In this document: piece by piece, positions 43,019 through 54,932 of the stretch
Layout: the number at the start of each line of letters is the position of its first letter
How positions within the stretch are numbered: position 1 is the stretch's first letter
Assembly: GCF_900110415.1 (NCBI RefSeq)
Contig: NZ_FODR01000002.1
Span: 186,001-250,000 of the forward strand
Length of the DNA: 64,000 bases
Source: Mucilaginibacter sp. OK283
GTDB lineage: Bacteria > Bacteroidota > Bacteroidia > Sphingobacteriales > Sphingobacteriaceae
Reading direction: 5' to 3'
The notes under the pieces: model-generated
The model's input: the letters and a program-made list of their open reading frames with translations, nothing else
The model's database searches: none
What the model was told of the DNA's origin: nothing
Made by a program: the position numbers and the translations under genes

Positions 43019-44089
43019 TCAGCCTTTATAAAAAGCCTCTCTTATCTGCACTAAAAGCAATTCGGTTTTATCCATATCCGGCCTTTCGGGCAGGGTTGAT
43101 GTTTCATAGGCCGCTTTTACACTTTCCATTTTTTCTTCCACCATTTTCATCAGTTCATCAAACTCAAATTCGCCGTTGCGGATCCTGAGTAAAAAATCCC
43201 GGTCGTTGCGTTTTACTATTACCTGCTGAGATACAGCTATTTCTTCGGCCATATTGAGCAGACGGAAGGTGTGCATCATATTTTTGGCATCGTAACTTTT
43301 GCCGTGCGACAGCGTACTTTGATATCGCAAATCGTTCCGTTTATCTTCCCACTCCTGGTACTCCTTATATTCCCGGCAGTAAACGGAATAGCTATCTTTA
43401 TTAAAATTCATCACAGCCAGGTTTTCAATCCCTTTAGGCACCGAACTTAGCTGCACGTCATCAGCTCCGGCGCCAGAGATAAGCCCTTTTAGCCGGCCTT
43501 CCGTAAGCTGGCTTTGATGATATAATAAATACACATTCCTGAAATGGTCCAGGTTAATAAGGCCGCATTGCTCCTGGGTGTAGTTGTTTTCACTTAGCCA
43601 TTCCTTTAGCAGGATACTGCCGTTGTTGTGTATCACATAGCAAAAATCCAATACCGATTTCCGTTCGCTATCCATTGGCCGGTTTATCTTTTTGTTGAGG
43701 CCCCGCGCCTTTTTTATTTGCGTTTGCGCATAGCCTGCAAAGGTATCCATGCACAGTTTTGATAAAAAATCGGCAGGTTTAACCCAATCCATTAGCGGAT
43801 GGCGAAACAAAACATGTTCGGCCGGGGTATTTAGCAACTCCAGGATATTGGGGTTGTTTTTAACCAGCAGATCAAGAAAACGGCCAATTTCAAAATAAAC
43901 CTCGTCGTTGGTAGCATTGGCTATCTGCTCCTGCCGTTCAAACCCGTACAATTGTTTTTTCGGCATCATGAAGATGCCCTTCTTGTCCACGTCCGACCCG
44001 GCCACGTTGAGGTTATAAGCGGTGCTGCCGCTTACACAATCCAGCAGGATGAGGTCTTTACGTAGTTTTAATTCCTTGTAGTCCATCAT
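43019..44089 (-). CDS. Nucleotidyltransferase (Pol-beta superfamily), larger paralogue
   Basis: A 356-residue protein with the minimal Pol-beta nucleotidyltransferase motif: VSGSTAYNLNVAGSDVDKKG (about 19-38), that is GS followed by DxD, plus a later acidic strand. It belongs to the YcgL-like predicted nucleotidyltransferases. A long helical C-terminal part (about 130-356) has KKARGLNKKI and other basic stretches suited to RNA binding. Its start overlaps the previous gene's stop by 4 bp. It sits beside the pnkp-hen1 RNA-repair genes, so adding nucleotides to damaged RNA ends is a fair hypothesis, not a demonstrated role. Confidence 0.85.
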   Translation of the reverse strand: MMDYKELKLRKDLILLDCVSGSTAYNLNVAGSDVDKKGIFMMPKKQLYGFERQEQIANATNDEVYFEIGRFLDLLVKNNPNILELLNTPAEHVLFRHPLMDWVKPADFLSKLCMDTFAGYAQTQIKKARGLNKKINRPMDSERKSVLDFCYVIHNNGSILLKEWLSENNYTQEQCGLINLDHFRNVYLLYHQSQLTEGRLKGLISGAGADDVQLSSVPKGIENLAVMNFNKDSYSVYCREYKEYQEWEDKRNDLRYQSTLSHGKSYDAKNMMHTFRLLNMAEEIAVSQQVIVKRNDRDFLLRIRNGEFEFDELMKMVEEKMESVKAAYETSTLPERPDMDKTELLLVQIREAFYKG

Positions 44090-44838
44090 CGTATATGCCT
44101 CCTGAATAGCTCATTTAACGGCTGCGCCGGTTGCTGTTCTGATGTAAATTGTTGTAGCTGCTCTTTGCATTTTGCAAGCGTATCGCCAAGCCATTCATTC
44201 AATATAGCAACAGGCGCTATCATTGCTTTTTCATCAGCGAACTTCTTCTGTTCCAGTAAGCCGTCTATTTCGGCCTGCACCTTGTTATCGGCTAACAATA
44301 CCCGCAGCTTATCAAACTCCATAGGCGGTACGGTGTGCTTCTCCACTATCCACCGGCAAGCAAGCGCCGGGCGCAACGCGTAAAAATATCGTTTAAGTTT
44401 TACCTCTTCAGCCTGTAAATCATCCCGCAGGGTATTATGTGCCATAGATAAATAGTGGTTCCCGGCAGATCGTAAGGAAAAATAGCCGGGCATCAAGCTC
44501 CGCAGCTCATCAGCAAAAACATCATCCTGCCGGTATACTATCGGCGATTGCAGCCACTCGTACAACGGCGCGTTTGATTTCATGAACAGCTTTAAAGTTT
44601 TCTTTAAATCCCAGCCGCCTATGTCCAATACCTCGTTAACCGGCAGGCCAACCACATCGGGCATTTCAACAATGCTCAAATAATCGCCGGCAGGGCGGGA
44701 GTAGATAAACCGCACATCAAAATCACTATCGGGCGAGGCAAAGCCCCAGGCCCGGCTACCCGATTCGCAGACGTACAGGATTTTTATATTTTCCGACTGC
44801 TCCAGTTCGAGCAGTTTTTGGAGGATGGTTTGTTTCAT
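44086..44838 (-). CDS. Nucleotidyltransferase (Pol-beta superfamily), YcgL-like
   Basis: A 250-residue protein with a clear catalytic loop CESGSRAWGFASPDSDFDVR (about 24-43; GSxxWG and DxD) and a third acidic position in the EVLDIGGWDLKKTLKLF strand, diagnostic of the YcgL-type branch. It probably transfers NMP to a nucleic-acid or protein acceptor. It is first of a two- or three-gene operon with the larger paralogue (4-bp overlap). A TACTTTG box at about 44862-44868 on the minus strand may be its -7 element. It is separated from pnkp by a hairpin repeat, so it is probably transcribed on its own. Confidence 0.88.
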   Translation of the reverse strand: MKQTILQKLLELEQSENIKILYVCESGSRAWGFASPDSDFDVRFIYSRPAGDYLSIVEMPDVVGLPVNEVLDIGGWDLKKTLKLFMKSNAPLYEWLQSPIVYRQDDVFADELRSLMPGYFSLRSAGNHYLSMAHNTLRDDLQAEEVKLKRYFYALRPALACRWIVEKHTVPPMEFDKLRVLLADNKVQAEIDGLLEQKKFADEKAMIAPVAILNEWLGDTLAKCKEQLQQFTSEQQPAQPLNELFRRHIR

Positions 44839-49595: not shown

Positions 49596-49636
49596 GATAC
49601 AAAGTAAGGAGGGCAGTGCGCAGCCTTTTTGCGTAG
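49596..49636 (-). promoter_or_regulatory. hen1 promoter with RNA-repair operator
   Basis: On the plus strand GTGCGCA (49616-49622), GCCTTTT, TGCGTAG (49630-49636) is 19/21 identical to the dyad before rtcB. Eight bases nearer hen1 is the block 49596-49607, which reads TTACTTTGTATC on the minus strand (TTATTTTGTATC before rtcB) and fits a -7 box. The -33 TTG is missing and the dyad takes its place, pointing to an activator-dependent promoter. Confidence 0.8.
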
Positions 49637-49740
49637 TGAGGGTGGGTTTTGAAATAGTGAATTTTATTTGGGGTAACACAGGCGTAGTGCTGGTTTGAAA
49701 CCTTGGGTATTTAAAAGAAAAAAGAGGTGTGGCCTGTGCG

Positions 49741-49872
49741 ATTCCTTCCTCGGGGAAGGGAAGGTAGGGGTTAAATCAGGCGTTCAATCCGCTTTATAAC
49801 TCGTCGCTCATATAAACCCCTCCCTGCCTTTGCGCTCATTTCCAACCGCACCCCTCCCGTGGGGAGGGAATT
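49741..49872. repeat. Hairpin-rich repeat between hen1 and the GH130-like gene
   Basis: It contains two self-complementary blocks, CCTTCCTCGGGGAAGG near 49744-49759 and CCCTCCCGTGGGGAGGG at 49852-49868, within a larger imperfect inverted repeat (AAGGTAGGGGTT against AACCCCTCCCTGCCTT). Probably another miniature palindromic repeat. The remaining bases up to 49997 hold nothing else. Confidence 0.65.
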
Positions 49873-49997
49873 AAAAATCGTTCAAACACTCAAAGTTTCA
49901 AACCCAATCGCTATATATCCCCCCTCCCACACACTCACACTTTTAATTTTTATTCCCCGCAATACCACGTACTATTGTAAACCAATATAACCCGTTT

Positions 49998-51155
49998 ATG
50001 AAACCAATTTTTAAAATAGCCAGGGCTTTTGTTTTGCTGCTGTTAAGCCAGGCATGTTTTGGGCAGGCTACCACCAATGTACTGCCCGACTGGGCTTTTG
50101 GCGGTTTTGCACGCCCGGCAAAGTTGAACCCTATTATATCGCCCGATACCAGCCTCACGTTTATTGACCCGATGAGTAAAAAGCCGGTGGCCTGGGAGGC
50201 TAACGATACTTTTAACCCGGGCGCGGCGGTTAAAAATGGCAAGGTGGTGGTTTTATACCGGGCCGAAGATAAGTTTGGTATTGGCATCGGTTTCCGCACA
50301 TCGCGGCTGGGTTATGCCGAAAGCCGCGACGGGCTGCATTTTACCAGGCGAAAAGCCCCGGTGCTTTACCCGGCCAATGATGCTGCCAAACCCTATGAAT
50401 GGCCCGGTGGCTGTGAAGACCCGCGAGTGGCCGTTACCCCCGGCGGTACTTACGTTGTGTTTTATACCGAATGGAACCGTAAACTGCCCCGCCTGGGCGT
50501 AGCTACCTCAACCGACCTTATCCACTGGAAAAAGCACGGGCCTATTTTTGAAACGGCTTACCATGGTAAGTTTTTTAACATCGCCAGTAAATCGGCATCG
50601 ATACTCACCAAAGTAGTGAATGGCAAACAGGTGATCATTAAAATAAATGGCAAGTACTGGCTGTATTGGGGCGAGCAGCATGTATATGCAGCAACATCAA
50701 CCAATTTGGTTGACTGGGCGCCGGTGGTAGATAAAAACATGGAATTAAAACAACTGATATCGCCACGCCCCGGCTATTTTGACAGCGACCTTACCGAATG
50801 CGGCCCGCCTGCGTTGATGACCCATAAGGGAATCATATTGTTTTATAACGGTAAAAATAAACCCGCCGAAGGCCGGGATACCAGGTTTAACCCAAACTCG
50901 TACTGCGCGGGGCAGGCCTTGTTTGATAGTAAAGACCCGGCGAAGAACATCACCCGGCTCGACCTGCCCTTTTTAAGGCCGATGGAGCCTTTTGAAAAAA
51001 GCGGGCAGTATGTTAACGGAACGGTGTTTATTGAGGGGATGGTTTACTTTAAAAAGAAATGGTACCTGTACTACGGCTGCGCCGATTCGCGGGTAGGAGT
51101 TGCGGTTTATGATCCGGCCAGTCCGGCTAAGCCCGATCCGGTTGGGGGGAATTAG
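49998..51155 (+). CDS. Exported GH130-like glycosidase/phosphorylase
   Basis: A 385-residue protein with signal peptide (MKPIFKIARAFVLLLLSQACFG) and a five-bladed propeller of the GH43/GH130 type. GH130-like features are NPGAAVKNGKVVVLYRAEDK, the GGCEDPRVAV loop, LTECGPPAL and the final YYGCADSRVGVAVYD. GH130 enzymes act on beta-mannosides, some by phosphorolysis and exported ones by hydrolysis. It is on the opposite strand to the RNA-repair genes on both sides and seems unrelated to them. No sugar-use neighbour is next to it. Confidence 0.88.
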   Translation: MKPIFKIARAFVLLLLSQACFGQATTNVLPDWAFGGFARPAKLNPIISPDTSLTFIDPMSKKPVAWEANDTFNPGAAVKNGKVVVLYRAEDKFGIGIGFRTSRLGYAESRDGLHFTRRKAPVLYPANDAAKPYEWPGGCEDPRVAVTPGGTYVVFYTEWNRKLPRLGVATSTDLIHWKKHGPIFETAYHGKFFNIASKSASILTKVVNGKQVIIKINGKYWLYWGEQHVYAATSTNLVDWAPVVDKNMELKQLISPRPGYFDSDLTECGPPALMTHKGIILFYNGKNKPAEGRDTRFNPNSYCAGQALFDSKDPAKNITRLDLPFLRPMEPFEKSGQYVNGTVFIEGMVYFKKKWYLYYGCADSRVGVAVYDPASPAKPDPVGGN

Positions 51156-51158
51156 TGT

Positions 51159-51284
51159 TAAGTCTTGAGTTCTAAGTCGAAAGTCAATTTAAGGATTTCG
51201 AAGAAAGGCGTTTAATAGTATTAAAGTGTATAATCAAAAGTTAAATTAATTCTTTTTGACTTAGAACTTAAGGCTTTAGACTAA
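51159..51284. repeat. Intergenic hairpin repeat, AAGTCTTGAGT family, copy 1
   Basis: Left part 51159-51187 (AAGTCTTGAGTTCTAAGTC) is inverted relative to 51258-51282 (GACTTAGAACTTAAGGC). A related element is at 55491-55560. It probably acts as a terminator after the GH130-like gene or is a dispersed repeat. Confidence 0.6.
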
Positions 51285-51385
51285 AAATTTAAGGGCGCAT
51301 ACTTTTTAAGCACTAAGTGTGCACCCTTAAACACACAGACCAAGGGATGGCCTGCCTGCGCAAAGAGGTCGTTATAAAGTTCTCT

Positions 51386-51565
51386 CTAAAACGATAACGG
51401 TCCGTGGCTGCTGCCGAACGGAAATTTATTAACCCGCCCATGCGAATGATCACAACGCGTATGATCGCGATACATTTTGGGGTTAAAACTTTGGCAGGGT
51501 ACTGATTCAGATTTTGTAGCCTCCGCCTTCTCGGGCTGATTAACTACAGTGACATTTTTCTTCAT
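51386..51565 (-). CDS. Small Cys/His-containing peptide, 59 residues (hypothetical)
   Basis: A 59-codon frame from ATG 51565 to TAG 51386-51388, preceded by AGGAG about eight bases upstream, an unusually good ribosome site for this genome. It encodes MKKNVTVVNQPEKAEATKS, then a part with two Cys and several His (YRDHTRCDHSHGR) and a Gly/Ser end (FGSSHGPLSF). The charged N-terminal half and compositionally distinct C-terminal half resemble leader-core peptides, but no modifying enzyme is adjacent. It could also be a metal-binding peptide. Confidence 0.45.
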   Translation of the reverse strand: MKKNVTVVNQPEKAEATKSESVPCQSFNPKMYRDHTRCDHSHGRVNKFPFGSSHGPLSF

Positions 51566-51720
51566 GACGACTTCTCCTGTATATTTGGTTTATTTGAAAT
51601 TGGTAGTATGAAGTTAAGCACAAAATAGCTCATTTACAATAGCGTTAGGAAGAAAAAAATAGTATTAAATAATATGGGTTTCCGGCTTACAAAAGTCGAT
51701 CTACAATAAACGGGCTGGAC

Positions 51721-52218
51721 TCACTTAACAGGATTTTGTAACAGCCATTGAACAAAGTAATCGTGAATGATGGAATCGATATCGCTGTTGCCTTTAGATG
51801 TAAAATACCATTGAACTCCATCATTAAGTAGCTCCTCCTCCTTAGCATAATAAAGATGAGCAAAGTCTTCAAGATACGATCCCTCGTCGAGTTCGAAATA
51901 GATGTCATAAAATATCTTTAATACCTTTATCGTTGGCGTAATCCCATCTAAAGAAAGCAAAATTAAATAGCTTACATAATTCCTGATTATTTGGTGCTTA
52001 TCTGTATAATCAAGGTTTAATTCATCTAAAGCTTTAGTGGTTAAGGGCTGCAACTCAAAATGACTATCATGAACGCTTGCACCGGCCAGTTCTACCAGGT
52101 GTTCTGTATCAAACCCTGCCATTAACATATTAACGGCCCATCTGATCCAGATTTCGTCAATATTTCTGTTTAGAACTTTATAAGCCAATATTTCGGTAGT
52201 TGATGGGATAGGTTTCAT
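51721..52218 (-). CDS. Hypothetical protein downstream of rtcB
   Basis: A 165-residue soluble, mostly helical, acidic protein (IPSTTEILAYKVLNRNIDEI, FYDIYFELDEGSYLED, HLYYAKEEELLND). No motif is recognised. It starts 83 bases after the rtcB stop on the same strand, so it may share the rtcB transcript. A good start ATG and coding-like composition support it as real. Confidence 0.7.
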   Translation of the reverse strand: MKPIPSTTEILAYKVLNRNIDEIWIRWAVNMLMAGFDTEHLVELAGASVHDSHFELQPLTTKALDELNLDYTDKHQIIRNYVSYLILLSLDGITPTIKVLKIFYDIYFELDEGSYLEDFAHLYYAKEEELLNDGVQWYFTSKGNSDIDSIIHDYFVQWLLQNPVK

Positions 52219-52301
52219 CGTAAATAAAATTAGCGCTGGCCCGTGAAACGAACCAACGCAGGTTTAGGAATTAATTTGTTAATAATCGTATAAGATATGC
52301 C

Positions 52302-53756
52302 TCAATCCTCGGGTTTCTCCGTTGCATCTGCCATCCTTACAATCCTCGGCTCAAACTTGGCCAGTACTTCAACCAGGTCGCTTTGGGCGGCCATTACGGT
52401 GTGGATATCCTTGTAGGCCATCGGAGCTTCGTCCATATCGCTCCCCATCAGGGTGATGCGTTTATCAATTAGGTTGGCGGCAATGGCTGCTTTATCAAGC
52501 GTTTTAAAAGCGGCGCTCCGGCTCATTAACCGGCCTGCGCCGTGCGATGCCGAGTTGATGCTGGCCGCATCGCCTTTACCACGTACCACAAAACCAGGCG
52601 TACTCATTGATCCGGGGATGATACCCAACACACCTTTGCCTGCCGGCGTTGCCCCTTTACGGTGAACCATTACTTCGGTGCCATCGGCCAGCTTTTCTTT
52701 CCAGGCGAAATTATGGTGGTTTTCAATCATCATAACCGGTTGCTGGTTAAGCGCGCGGGCTATTTTGTTATGTATCTCGTGGTGGTTGGCGCTGGCATAC
52801 TCGCCGGCAAGGTTCATGGCAATCCAGTATTCATGCCCCTCCTCCTTATCCAAATCCAGCCAGGCCAGGTGCTTGGCTTCGGCAGGCAGCCTGGTTTTGT
52901 CCATGGCTATTTTAGAGTAATGATTGGCCACGCTACCCCCAAAGCCCCGCGAACCGGAGTGCGATAACAAAGCCAGGTAATTACCAGCAGGTATTCCGTC
53001 CAAAACACCATCGGCAATGCTTAGCTCGCCCCACTCCACAAAATGGTTACCTGTTCCGCTGGTACCCAACTGCGCGTACGCCTTGTTTCTTAACGAACGG
53101 ATCATCCTGGTCTCACCCCAGGTATTGCTATCAAACAATGAGCTGTCAAAATGCGATTTTGTAGTACATCCCATGCCAAAAAAAGTATGGTCGCCCAGCA
53201 TGGTTTTTAATTTATCCGTTTCGGTATCTATCATTTGGGCCGGCAAATCAAAAATGCTCAGGCACATCCGGCAGGCAATATCCACGCCCACCGCGAAGGG
53301 TATAATGGTATTGGCTGTTGTAGCCAGCACACCGCCAATAGGCAGGCCATAGCCTTGATGGGCATCGGGCATTAAAGCGCCTGCAACAGCAACCGGCAAC
53401 TGCACAGCCGAACGCATTTGGGCCATCGCGCCTGCATGAATATGCTCTGCTCCCCAAACCGGGAAATCGGTAACGGCCTCTTTCAGCTTAAACTCGTCCT
53501 GTAGCTGTTTTAAAAAACGGCCCTCTTTACGCAAAGCGATAACATTTTCGGCAAGGTTTTTAAACTTGCCATCGTTGTTAAACAGGTAGGTTGCCGGGTC
53601 GTTAATTAAAGCTTCCAGGTTGGCCAGTATATCGGTTTTGCTCATTACCTCGTTTTTCAATAAGCCCGATGCCACACGGCCAAAGCTTACCAATATATCC
53701 ACGTCATTAATACCCAGGTCTTTTAAGTTGTTGTTGCTGATCTTTTCTTTTTCCAT
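52302..53756 (-). CDS. rtcB: RtcB, 3'-phosphate RNA ligase
   Basis: A 484-residue enzyme that joins RNA 3'-phosphate or 2',3'-cyclic phosphate to 5'-OH using GTP and Mn2+. All hallmark motifs are seen: MPDAHQGYGLPIGGV, VGVDIACRM (metal Asp and Cys), GTSGTGNHFVEWG, LLSHSGSRGFG, ENHHNFAW, MVHRKGATPAGKG, IPGSMSTPGFVV and the guanylylated His in SHGAGRLMSR (near residue 405). ATG 53756 (MEKEKI) is preferred over 53762. It is divergent from a WYL regulator and shares its promoter design with hen1. No archease gene is adjacent. It gives the cell a second sealing route beside Pnkp. Confidence 0.97.
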   Translation of the reverse strand: MEKEKISNNNLKDLGINDVDILVSFGRVASGLLKNEVMSKTDILANLEALINDPATYLFNNDGKFKNLAENVIALRKEGRFLKQLQDEFKLKEAVTDFPVWGAEHIHAGAMAQMRSAVQLPVAVAGALMPDAHQGYGLPIGGVLATTANTIIPFAVGVDIACRMCLSIFDLPAQMIDTETDKLKTMLGDHTFFGMGCTTKSHFDSSLFDSNTWGETRMIRSLRNKAYAQLGTSGTGNHFVEWGELSIADGVLDGIPAGNYLALLSHSGSRGFGGSVANHYSKIAMDKTRLPAEAKHLAWLDLDKEEGHEYWIAMNLAGEYASANHHEIHNKIARALNQQPVMMIENHHNFAWKEKLADGTEVMVHRKGATPAGKGVLGIIPGSMSTPGFVVRGKGDAASINSASHGAGRLMSRSAAFKTLDKAAIAANLIDKRITLMGSDMDEAPMAYKDIHTVMAAQSDLVEVLAKFEPRIVRMADATEKPED

Positions 53757-53777
53757 GACCATTATTATCTTTTTGAT

Positions 53778-53818
53778 GATACAAAATAAAAGCCTTGCTG
53801 CGCAGCCTTTTTGCGCAG
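53778..53818 (-). promoter_or_regulatory. rtcB promoter with RNA-repair operator
   Basis: A perfect dyad: CTGCGCA (53798-53804), spacer GCCTTTT, TGCGCAG (53812-53818). Then exactly eight unconserved bases lead to 53778-53789, TTATTTTGTATC on the minus strand, a -7-like box. Spacing and order are the same as before hen1. The site also lies 71 bases upstream of the divergent WYL-regulator start. Confidence 0.85.
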
Positions 53819-53888: not shown

Positions 53889-54932
53889 ATGCCTGTAAAC
53901 CGCAATGCCCTTATCCGCTATCGTACTATTGACAATTGCCTGCAAAACCGCTATAAAAAATGGACGCTTGACGATTTGATTGATGCCTGCTCAGACGCCT
54001 TATACGAATTTGAAGGCATTGATAAAGGCGTGAGCCGCCGCTCGGTACAGGCCGATATCGAGATGATGCGCAGCAATAAGCTGGGTTATGAGGCTCCCAT
54101 TATAGTGGTAGATAAAAAGTATTATACCTATGCCGATAAAAATTACAGCATTACCAACAGCCCCATCAACCAGCAGGATTTAAAAGTTTTGAGCGAGGTA
54201 TCGAGCCTGCTAAAACAATTTAAAGGCTTTAACCACTTTACCGATCTGAACGAAATGGTGAGCAAGCTGGAGGATAAAATCTATTCCCAAAAAACGCACA
54301 GCGCGCCGGTTATCGATTTTGAAAAGAATGATAACCTGAAGGGGCTGGAGTATATCGAGGTTATCCGTAAGGCCATCGTAGCTAAAAAGACCATGTGCAT
54401 TACCTACCAATCGTTCAAAGCGCGCGAGGCTAACACCTTTTGCTTTAGCGGGTACCTGTTAAAAGAATACCGTAACCGCTGGTTTGTATTGGGCATGCCA
54501 CATAAAAGAAATGCCCAAATGTTAAACCTGGCACTCGATAGGATTCAAACCATAGAAGAGCATTCCGATGAGTACCGCGAAAATAAATCGATAGATTTTG
54601 GCACTTATTATAGTGATGTTATCGGTGTAACCAAATCGCCGGGACAGCGCGATACACAGGTTGTGTTCTGGATTGATGATGCCAACGCCCCCTACGTGAT
54701 TACCAAGCCCCTGCACCATACTCAAAAAGTAGTGAGCGAAGAGAACGGCGGCAAAGTTTTTACTATCCGCGTAATCATGAATTTTGAGCTGGAACGCGAA
54801 CTGCTGGGTTTCGGCCCCAAAATAAAGGTATTAGGACCCAGGATTTTGGTTAAACAGATGAAGATATTATTGCAAAAATCGCTCAACAGATATGAAGTTC
54901 CCTCGGCTATACAGGTTAGTTCGGAAGAATAA
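53889..54932 (+). CDS. WYL-domain transcriptional regulator of the RNA-repair island
   Basis: A 347-residue regulator starting at ATG 53889 (MPVNRNALIRYRTIDNCLQ); an in-frame ATG at 53811 lies inside the operator and is rejected. The N-terminal winged helix (about 1-75) includes WTLDDLIDACSDALYEFEG and GVSRRSVQADIEMMR, the DeoR-like recognition helix. The WYL domain (about 160-260) shows KTMCITYQSFKAREANTF and LKEYRNRWFVLGM, followed by a WCX-like C-terminal region (about 265-345). WYL domains are known or proposed to sense nucleic-acid ligands. Placed back to back with rtcB, it takes the position RtcR holds in enterobacteria. It is the best candidate for the factor binding the shared dyad. 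Confidence 0.92.
   Translation: MPVNRNALIRYRTIDNCLQNRYKKWTLDDLIDACSDALYEFEGIDKGVSRRSVQADIEMMRSNKLGYEAPIIVVDKKYYTYADKNYSITNSPINQQDLKVLSEVSSLLKQFKGFNHFTDLNEMVSKLEDKIYSQKTHSAPVIDFEKNDNLKGLEYIEVIRKAIVAKKTMCITYQSFKAREANTFCFSGYLLKEYRNRWFVLGMPHKRNAQMLNLALDRIQTIEEHSDEYRENKSIDFGTYYSDVIGVTKSPGQRDTQVVFWIDDANAPYVITKPLHHTQKVVSEENGGKVFTIRVIMNFELERELLGFGPKIKVLGPRILVKQMKILLQKSLNRYEVPSAIQVSSEE

Follow-up and report, generated by a model that had tools for sequence, protein, structure and literature searches.

Within a 64,000-nucleotide (nt) window of the Mucilaginibacter sp. OK283 genome (G000:C18:186001-250000, the whole stretch of DNA analysed; genome size 7.19 Mb), the RNA-repair genes hen1 and rtcB are each preceded by a dyad that we propose to be an operator. 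They and an unlinked gene for a Ro60-like protein share a single 21-bp pseudo-palindrome, set at a constant distance from the promoter's -7 box. Comparison of sequences establishes that the site exists with this geometry, that in OK283 it is confined to these genes, that over the class it is linked to a gene for a WYL-domain protein, and that WYL is fused to the RNA-repair enzyme KptA in some relatives. The WYL protein encoded beside rtcB most likely binds the site and activates hen1, rtcB and the Ro60-like gene upon RNA damage, and we regard such a WYL-controlled RNA-damage regulon as probable.

Read on the minus strand, the dyad, gap and -7 block are CTACGCAAAAAGGCTGCGCAC, TGCCCTCC and TTACTTTGTATC before hen1, and CTGCGCAAAAAGGCTGCGCAG, CAAGGCTT and TTATTTTGTATC before rtcB. 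The initial annotation had placed the two dyads where the table lists them, with 19/21 identity, and both statements were confirmed. It had further described an unconserved gap of 8 nt and a -7 block with 11/12 identity. These descriptions hold for the two window promoters, but across 71 distinct promoters the unconserved stretch extends to ~12 nt, and little beyond TTTG is invariant in the -7 block. The dyad by itself is not rare, with 5 matches in the window at up to three mismatches against 2.8 expected; unlike the dyad alone, the composite of dyad and -7 block is rare.

Searching the OK283 genome for the composite TGCGCA-N7-TGCGCA-N13-TTTGTA with at most one mismatch returned exactly three sites, before rtcB, hen1 and a TROVE gene. 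Allowing three mismatches gave 14 matches genome-wide, the remaining 11 all having three, while the reversed pattern gave one match at that threshold. The third site lies 47 bp before the Ro60-like gene on contig G000:C23, unlinked to the window, and the encoded protein has TROVE and Ro60-vWA domains (PF05731, E 6.3e-30; PF25045, E 1.1e-7; both over cut-off). Among the three-mismatch matches, C15:57159 combines a perfect dyad and correct spacing with a degenerate -7 box, before a gene for a DUF4209-like protein that carries an RNNIAH motif. Abundance of the motif at unrelated genes was not seen in this genome, where all three sites with at most one mismatch precede RNA-repair or RNA-quality genes; a general motif of unrelated genes was rejected for OK283 on this genome-wide composite scan. 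The finding also goes beyond the initial annotation, adding the Ro60-like gene as a third target, HEPN-type candidate targets and WYL-KptA fusions. A second, distant rtcB (~49% identity) at G000:C14:697064-698356 has no site in its own genome.

The genus sample comprised 100 Mucilaginibacter genomes, 69 of which matched the composite at up to two mismatches. Full-length hen1 was found in 12 (a 13th match, in G407, spans residues 281-375 only); the close rtcB clade and TROVE were commoner across the genus. The 30 matches closest to the query were taken for each of rtcB, TROVE and WYL, more distant rtcB and TROVE copies being compared by coordinates only. A dyad lies within 600 bp upstream of 12/12 hen1, 30/30 rtcB and 30/30 TROVE loci. 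Of the 30 WYL loci given, a script could orient 29, and 27 of these have it too. Relatives that keep the WYL gene have the dyad before hen1 and rtcB, the absence of which the initial annotation had named as a refutation. The first TTTG falls at +13 after the dyad core in 70/72 promoters (11/12 hen1, 29/30 rtcB, 30/30 TROVE). The odd hen1 promoter (G015) has TTTA in that place; the odd rtcB promoter has an extra, earlier TTTG in a T-run, with the TTTG at +13 also present. In two genomes a distant rtcB paralog is divergent from hen1, ~0.5 kb from the hen1 dyad (G026:C13:90679-91974 and G067:C1:5267924-5269213).

Over the 71 promoters, most arm positions, the A-A-W-A of the spacer and TTTG carry ~2 bits of information, and none of the 12 gap positions reaches 1 bit. 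The AAWA is conserved beside the promoter-distal arm, so the site is directional, and the hen1, rtcB and TROVE promoters all read the same way relative to it. A -33 element takes the form of TTG at a spacing of 17-23 from the -7 box. Its absence, claimed for the two window promoters, extends to the whole set: 0/72 promoters have TTG at that spacing. The TA of the sigma-A box is likewise present in just 1/72. With the flavobacterial sigma-A box TAnnTTTG placed at -12 to -5, as given in part of PMC9723704, the dyad spans about -41 to -21.

A query lacking the promoter part, TRCGCARATAGRNTGCGYA matched exactly, found 35 sites in the 100 genus genomes against one for the reversed pattern. Fourteen precede rtcB, TROVE or hen1. 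In 17 of the remaining 21, TTTG stands at exactly +13 though it was not part of the query, and the geometry is therefore an independent result. At class level, TRCGCARAWASRNTGCGYA matched exactly at 52 sites in 35/395 genomes, against two for its reverse. We examined 45 class-level sites, three of them from the genus and one of these the window hen1 site. At 32/45, WYL, RtcB, TROVE, Hen1 or RlaP was recognised by blastp within 2.5 kb or to the locus end, and two further sites precede RNA ligases (Pfam); TTTG is at +13 in 27/45.

Both the site and the WYL gene were searched for in 90 genus genomes, with intact, cut and broken orthologs counted as WYL-positive and the lists compiled by hand. A site with at most one mismatch was present in 50/53 genomes with a WYL ortholog versus 4/37 without (Fisher 9e-17; the genomes are related, so co-occurrence p-values overstate). 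In this scoring G031 was taken from its rtcB locus, G029 (one match at up to two mismatches, place not listed) was counted as site-less, and G027 (decayed WYL fragments) and G029 (28% match) as WYL-less. Across the same two classes TROVE occurs in 32/53 versus 1/37 genomes, close rtcB in 46/53 versus 1/37, and hen1 in 10/53 versus 1/37. Some parts of the module are broken: WYL or rtcB genes interrupted by frameshift, stop or decay occur at L183 (G063), G027:C12:591454-591826 and L261 (the G002 rtcB), and more than one part has decayed in G027 and G038.

The WYL gene usually faces rtcB; by coordinates it faces hen1, with the dyad between, in G083, G063, G069 and G024. In the class sample it faces TROVE in G129, G135, G133 and G145, RtcB in G107, G120 and G110 (the last with two small ORFs, open reading frames, between), and a short gene followed by hen1 in G505 and G552, while RtcB is the second gene across from it in G127. 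In G483 it ends just before the site rather than facing it. WYL thus recurs near the dyad across families while its divergent partner alternates among rtcB, TROVE and the Hen1 cluster, which supports the choice of this protein as the regulator in the initial annotation. Six class genomes have hen1, three of them with a dyad near it (G000, G505 and G552; in the latter two the dyad is 0.6-0.7 kb upstream, across the short gene). In three genomes WYL and the dyad at rtcB or hen1 are both missing: G001, with the sole close rtcB in a WYL-less genome, has no dyad in its 9-kb stretch, and G534 and G542 (the latter 60% complete) have hen1 with no dyad near it and no WYL ortholog found. Among eight class-level WYL orthologs scored, L232 (G120) has the dyad at 10/12. 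None of seven other WYL paralogs (up to 40% identity) has it, the best arm score of 10/12 being reached once (L239).

The regulator has 347 residues, with a WYL domain and a C-terminal WCX domain above Pfam cut-offs; Pfam found these two only, and no helix-turn-helix, CARF or sigma-54 AAA+ domain. At its N-terminus the structural model has helices at 5-19, 27-42 and 50-61 and strands at 71-74 and 78-81, in a model with a predicted template modelling score (pTM) of only 0.51. Foldseek ranked DriD first (E 1.6e-15, with an alignment spanning nearly the whole chain), then PafBC, then BrxR and CapW, and a profile search against solved chains returned DriD-type, PafBC, BrxR and CapW chains.

In some relatives the regulator is fused to KptA/Tpt1: PF01885 lies on 13 of the best 120 WYL homologs listed, and Pfam confirmed the fusion in G057, G060 and G024. 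The printed fusion sequences keep LRH and two further arginines, which we take as the catalytic tetrad, with the tetrad of PMC6333775, as given in part of that paper, for reference. In G067, kptA is the gene next to WYL. Other families fuse WYL to a PhyH-type dioxygenase domain (L229:1504-3216, L305:3199-4917, L307:3097-4815), and the WYL proteins of L231 and L310 have further C-terminal extensions in which no Pfam family was found. Beside the WYL-KptA gene of G057, two ORFs (L176:407-2744) resemble, by eye, nicotinamide phosphoribosyltransferase and phosphoribosyl pyrophosphate synthetase, neighbours that would fit a nicotinamide adenine dinucleotide-dependent step.

We picture activation as follows. 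The WYL protein, like DriD and PafBC, would bind as a dimer centred near -31, stand in for the missing -33 contact and recruit RNA polymerase where the -7 box is poor. The signal may be a broken-RNA end or fragment on the WYL domain, a ligand suggested by the target genes and the KptA fusion; this is the least certain step. The output would be Hen1-Pnkp, RtcB and Ro60, and in some genomes also KptA, RlaP and small HEPN-like proteins.

Several observations weigh against this scheme. The distant rtcB paralog, without a site in OK283, also co-occurs with WYL (29/53 versus 4/37 genomes), so the co-occurrence partly reflects RNA-repair-rich genomes. Second rtcB copies in the WYL-positive G002 and G035 lack the dyad; G648 has WYL and a dyad at rtcB and none within 1.5 kb of hen1; and the WYL ortholog beside rtcB in G110 (L233) has no dyad (score 6). 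Of the class sites, 11/45 are near neither a core gene recognised by blastp nor an RNA ligase, some preceding, for example, bpX4. The weightiest objection comes from six site-bearing genomes (G040, G056, G058, G084, G087, G407) that have no WYL ortholog even by profile search. In G058, 71% complete, one site is at a contig end; in G087 the site falls on a remnant of TROVE; and of the two sites in G040, one falls on a truncated ORF. The second G040 site and those of G084, G407 and G056 stand before ORFs that appear intact, and dyads before HEPN-type genes persist in a few WYL-less genomes. In G080, a WYL paralog with 32% identity is divergent from a near-dyad with TTTG at +13 (L165, G080:C1:1644500-1650500); judging from this locus, regulators related to the WYL protein may read similar sites. 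The low pTM of the WYL model, whose mean predicted local distance difference test score is 79, belongs here too, as does the fact that the known WYL activators, its closest relatives, sense single-stranded DNA (ssDNA), not RNA, in the parts of PMC12340889 and PMC11804915 that describe them.

That last point favours a regulon as described whose signal is ssDNA or another DNA-damage product, with RNA repair embedded in a general genotoxic response. We think this somewhat unlikely: targets named by Pfam are mostly RNA-repair or RNA-quality genes (only part of the unnamed targets was scanned, and these may include a DNA-repair gene), and the regulator is fused or adjacent to KptA, an enzyme of RNA 2'-phosphates.

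BrxR and CapW, also among the solved relatives of the WYL protein, bind inverted repeats and repress the adjacent operon. A repressor of their type could sit on the dyad, block sigma at the -33 position that the dyad overlaps, and be released by a ligand; WYL factors of ADP-ribose operons are treated as negative regulators in part of PMC9503650. Repression nevertheless seems distinctly unlikely to us. The promoters look weak unaided, with no -33 TTG in 72/72 and the TA of the -7 box in one; a simple block would not need a strictly fixed distance between dyad and TTTG; and DriD and PafBC outscore BrxR and CapW. We prefer activation on the grounds of the absent -33 TTG, the near-absent TA and the closeness to DriD and PafBC. 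The fixed spacing, the missing -33 and the structural match lend support to the activation proposed in the initial annotation.

Another DNA-binding protein might read the dyad, WYL being a frequent neighbour and itself a target. The dyads before HEPN-like or other ORFs in the WYL-less G040, G084, G407 and G056, and the G080 paralog, would suit such a protein, which we nonetheless hold to be improbable, given the recurrence of WYL beside the dyad as partners change, the 50/53 versus 4/37 split, the dyad-free hen1 of the two WYL-less class genomes and the lack of the dyad at the seven other paralogs. Chance resemblance of the two window dyads, or recent duplication of an upstream region, might be suggested by the mere two copies there and the frequency of the dyad alone, but has a negligible probability and was rejected on the genome, genus and class scans: an unlinked third gene and dozens of genomes show the same geometry, the dyad and TTTG are conserved and the gap is not, and reversed patterns gave 1 versus 35 (genus) and 2 versus 52 (class) sites.

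The 21 genus sites away from rtcB, TROVE and hen1 point to further candidate targets. An R-[NDH]-x3-4-H motif, tested in the longest ORF starting within 450 nt of the site, is present at 13/21 non-core sites versus 20/313 background ORFs; the 13 include three from one 171-residue family, two from one DUF4209 family and one of only 85 residues. Pfam recognised DUF4209, HEPN_Cthe2314, DUF5677 or bpX4 in some non-core targets and nothing convincing in the others scanned. NCBIfam and PADLOC, applied to 10 proteins each, gave almost nothing on them: PDC-S39 (PADLOC) for the OK283 DUF4209-like protein, a sub-cut-off HepT match in L158, and other weak matches taken as chance. The 171-residue (MTGLQEM) family has 649 homologs, with a Pfam domain in none of the 120 listed; its one model had no significant Foldseek match, HepT and HEPN chains merely tying with unrelated helical bundles. 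In G045 the protein directly after rtcB has a sub-cut-off HEPN_Cthe2314 match (E 2.6e-5). We read the non-core targets as HEPN-like, not as proven ribonucleases. Single HEPN-like ORFs (R-N/D-x3-4-H) directly follow dyad and -7 box at L156, L157, L158, L160, L161, L163, L169, L172 and L222. In two families (L167, G047; L308, G142) the dyad is also found before bpX4, a gene of MoxR-vWA-beta-propeller ternary systems.

Repeated tRNA-like noncoding units follow 30/30 TROVE loci, with 2-7 core matches each; among 137 candidate units a tRNA-like T-arm was seen in 102 and a D-arm in 42. Tandem units with a TACTTCG core lie downstream of TROVE on G000:C23 (L037:6885-7926) and of TROVE loci L127-L155. 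These units are possible Y RNA arrays. Rfam searches of eight TROVE loci yielded no known Y RNA family at the gathering threshold, only tRNAs and one Flavo-1 RNA, and a crude stem-pairing test of the 137 units did not beat shuffles.

We advance one larger proposal, tentatively and as somewhat short of probable: an SOS-like RNA response in Bacteroidia, in which a WYL master regulator, KptA-fused in some species, would sense broken RNA and, at promoters unable to fire without WYL, switch on Hen1-Pnkp, RtcB and Ro60 with its Y-like RNAs, joined in many genomes by HEPN-type ribonuclease-like proteins.

Gene calls in the window are from the ORF list and families from Pfam; the bacterial Hen1-Pnkp domain set is complete there (Hen1_L, AAA_33, Metallophos and PNKP_ligase). 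No Pfam family was found for the small ORF that follows rtcB. ORFs of similar appearance exist in G003 (L258), where the ORF comes after rtcB, and in G058 (L263), where a one-mismatch site lies upstream of it; both likenesses were judged by eye from printed sequences.

Table 1. Proposed regulatory elements and genes in the window, with WYL-KptA fusion genes of other genomes
Feature	Position	Strand	Evidence
hen1 dyad (proposed operator), CTACGCA-AAAAGGC-TGCGCAC on minus strand	49616..49636	-	sequence
hen1 gap, 8 nt, unconserved	49608..49615	-	<1 bit over gap in 71 promoters
hen1 -7 block TTACTTTGTATC	49596..49607	-	TTTG 13 nt after 19-nt dyad core in 11/12 hen1 promoters
rtcB dyad (proposed operator), also upstream of divergent WYL gene; CTGCGCA-AAAAGGC-TGCGCAG on minus strand	53798..53818	-	
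rtcB gap, 8 nt, unconserved	53790..53797	-	sequence
rtcB -7 block TTATTTTGTATC	53778..53789	-	first TTTG 13 nt after dyad core in 29/30 rtcB promoters
WYL-WCX regulator, 347 residues, proposed activator, divergent from rtcB	53889..54932	+	Pfam WYL E 1.4e-10, WCX E 1e-10
rtcB RNA ligase, 486 residues	52302..53762	-	ORF; Pfam PF01139 E 1.8e-82
small ORF, 165 residues, 83 nt past rtcB, possible operon member	51721..52218	-	ORF
hen1 (Hen1_L + methyltransferase), 470 residues	48132..49544	-	ORF; Pfam PF12623 E 8.6e-106
pnkp (kinase-phosphatase-ligase), 853 residues	45283..47844	-	ORF; Pfam AAA_33, Metallophos, PNKP_ligase
RlaP nucleotidyltransferase of RNA-repair cluster	44086..44838	-	Pfam PF10127 E 2.3e-83
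second RlaP-related nucleotidyltransferase	43019..44089	-	Pfam PF10127 E 5.5e-19
WYL-KptA fusion genes	L176:2764-4362; L177:14602-16203; L181:3869-5458		PF01885

A full-text literature search found no description of this operator or of a WYL regulon of hen1, rtcB and Ro60; the survey of Burroughs and Aravind (2016; 10.1093/nar/gkw722) may already cover the gene neighbourhood as such. WYL regulators of damage regulons are already known. That some CARF or WYL factors may regulate RNA repair is stated in general terms in part of PMC9503650, and the present site supplies a concrete candidate operator. The role of bacterial KptA is called a longstanding conundrum in part of PMC6333775; the fusions give a new handle on its purpose, and the target list contributes HEPN-like genes, so far without names of their own, whose products may cause RNA damage or respond to it. 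The WYL activators described to date govern responses to DNA damage, and RNA repair has RtcR as its described regulator. If our reading is true, a dedicated RNA-damage response tying together Hen1-Pnkp, RtcB and Ro60 extends across a large bacterial class. It would be an emergency reaction to broken RNA, the RNA counterpart of the WYL-run responses to DNA damage.

BrxR and CapW resemble the present protein as WYL factors beside defence genes and differ in being weaker structural matches to its model than DriD and PafBC. RtcR, which controls rtcBA (together with genes for Ro60 and Y RNA in Salmonella), likewise regulates rtcB in response to damage, and the same operon holds a Ro60 ortholog, as described in part of PMC7790460. 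It differs as a sigma-54 activator with CARF, and Pfam found neither its CARF nor its sigma-54 AAA+ domain in the WYL protein; here a WYL one-component factor would serve sigma-A type promoters in a dispersed regulon that includes Hen1-Pnkp. PafBC, the mycobacterial WYL heterodimer of sigma adaptation, is an activator that enables transcription by the housekeeping polymerase from promoters lacking the customary -35 contact, inserting between the promoter and the sigma domain that normally touches -35 (described in part of PMC11804915). As portrayed there it is heterodimeric and ssDNA-activated with a -26 motif, whereas here there is one gene and a palindrome centred near -31. DriD, the top Foldseek match, is a protein of winged helix-turn-helix, WYL and WCX-like make-up with a small, scattered regulon, and its 20-bp pseudo-palindrome lies at a constant distance from -10, overlapping a poor -35 (in part of PMC12340889). 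Two traits of the DriD and PafBC type were found here as well: an operator at a fixed distance from the -7 box, over a poor or missing -33. The DriD targets described are didA, bapE, recJ and dnaG, with a site at its own gene and an ssDNA ligand; the system proposed here differs in its RNA-repair and RNA quality-control targets, its Bacteroidetes-type -7 box and the KptA or PhyH domain of some orthologs.

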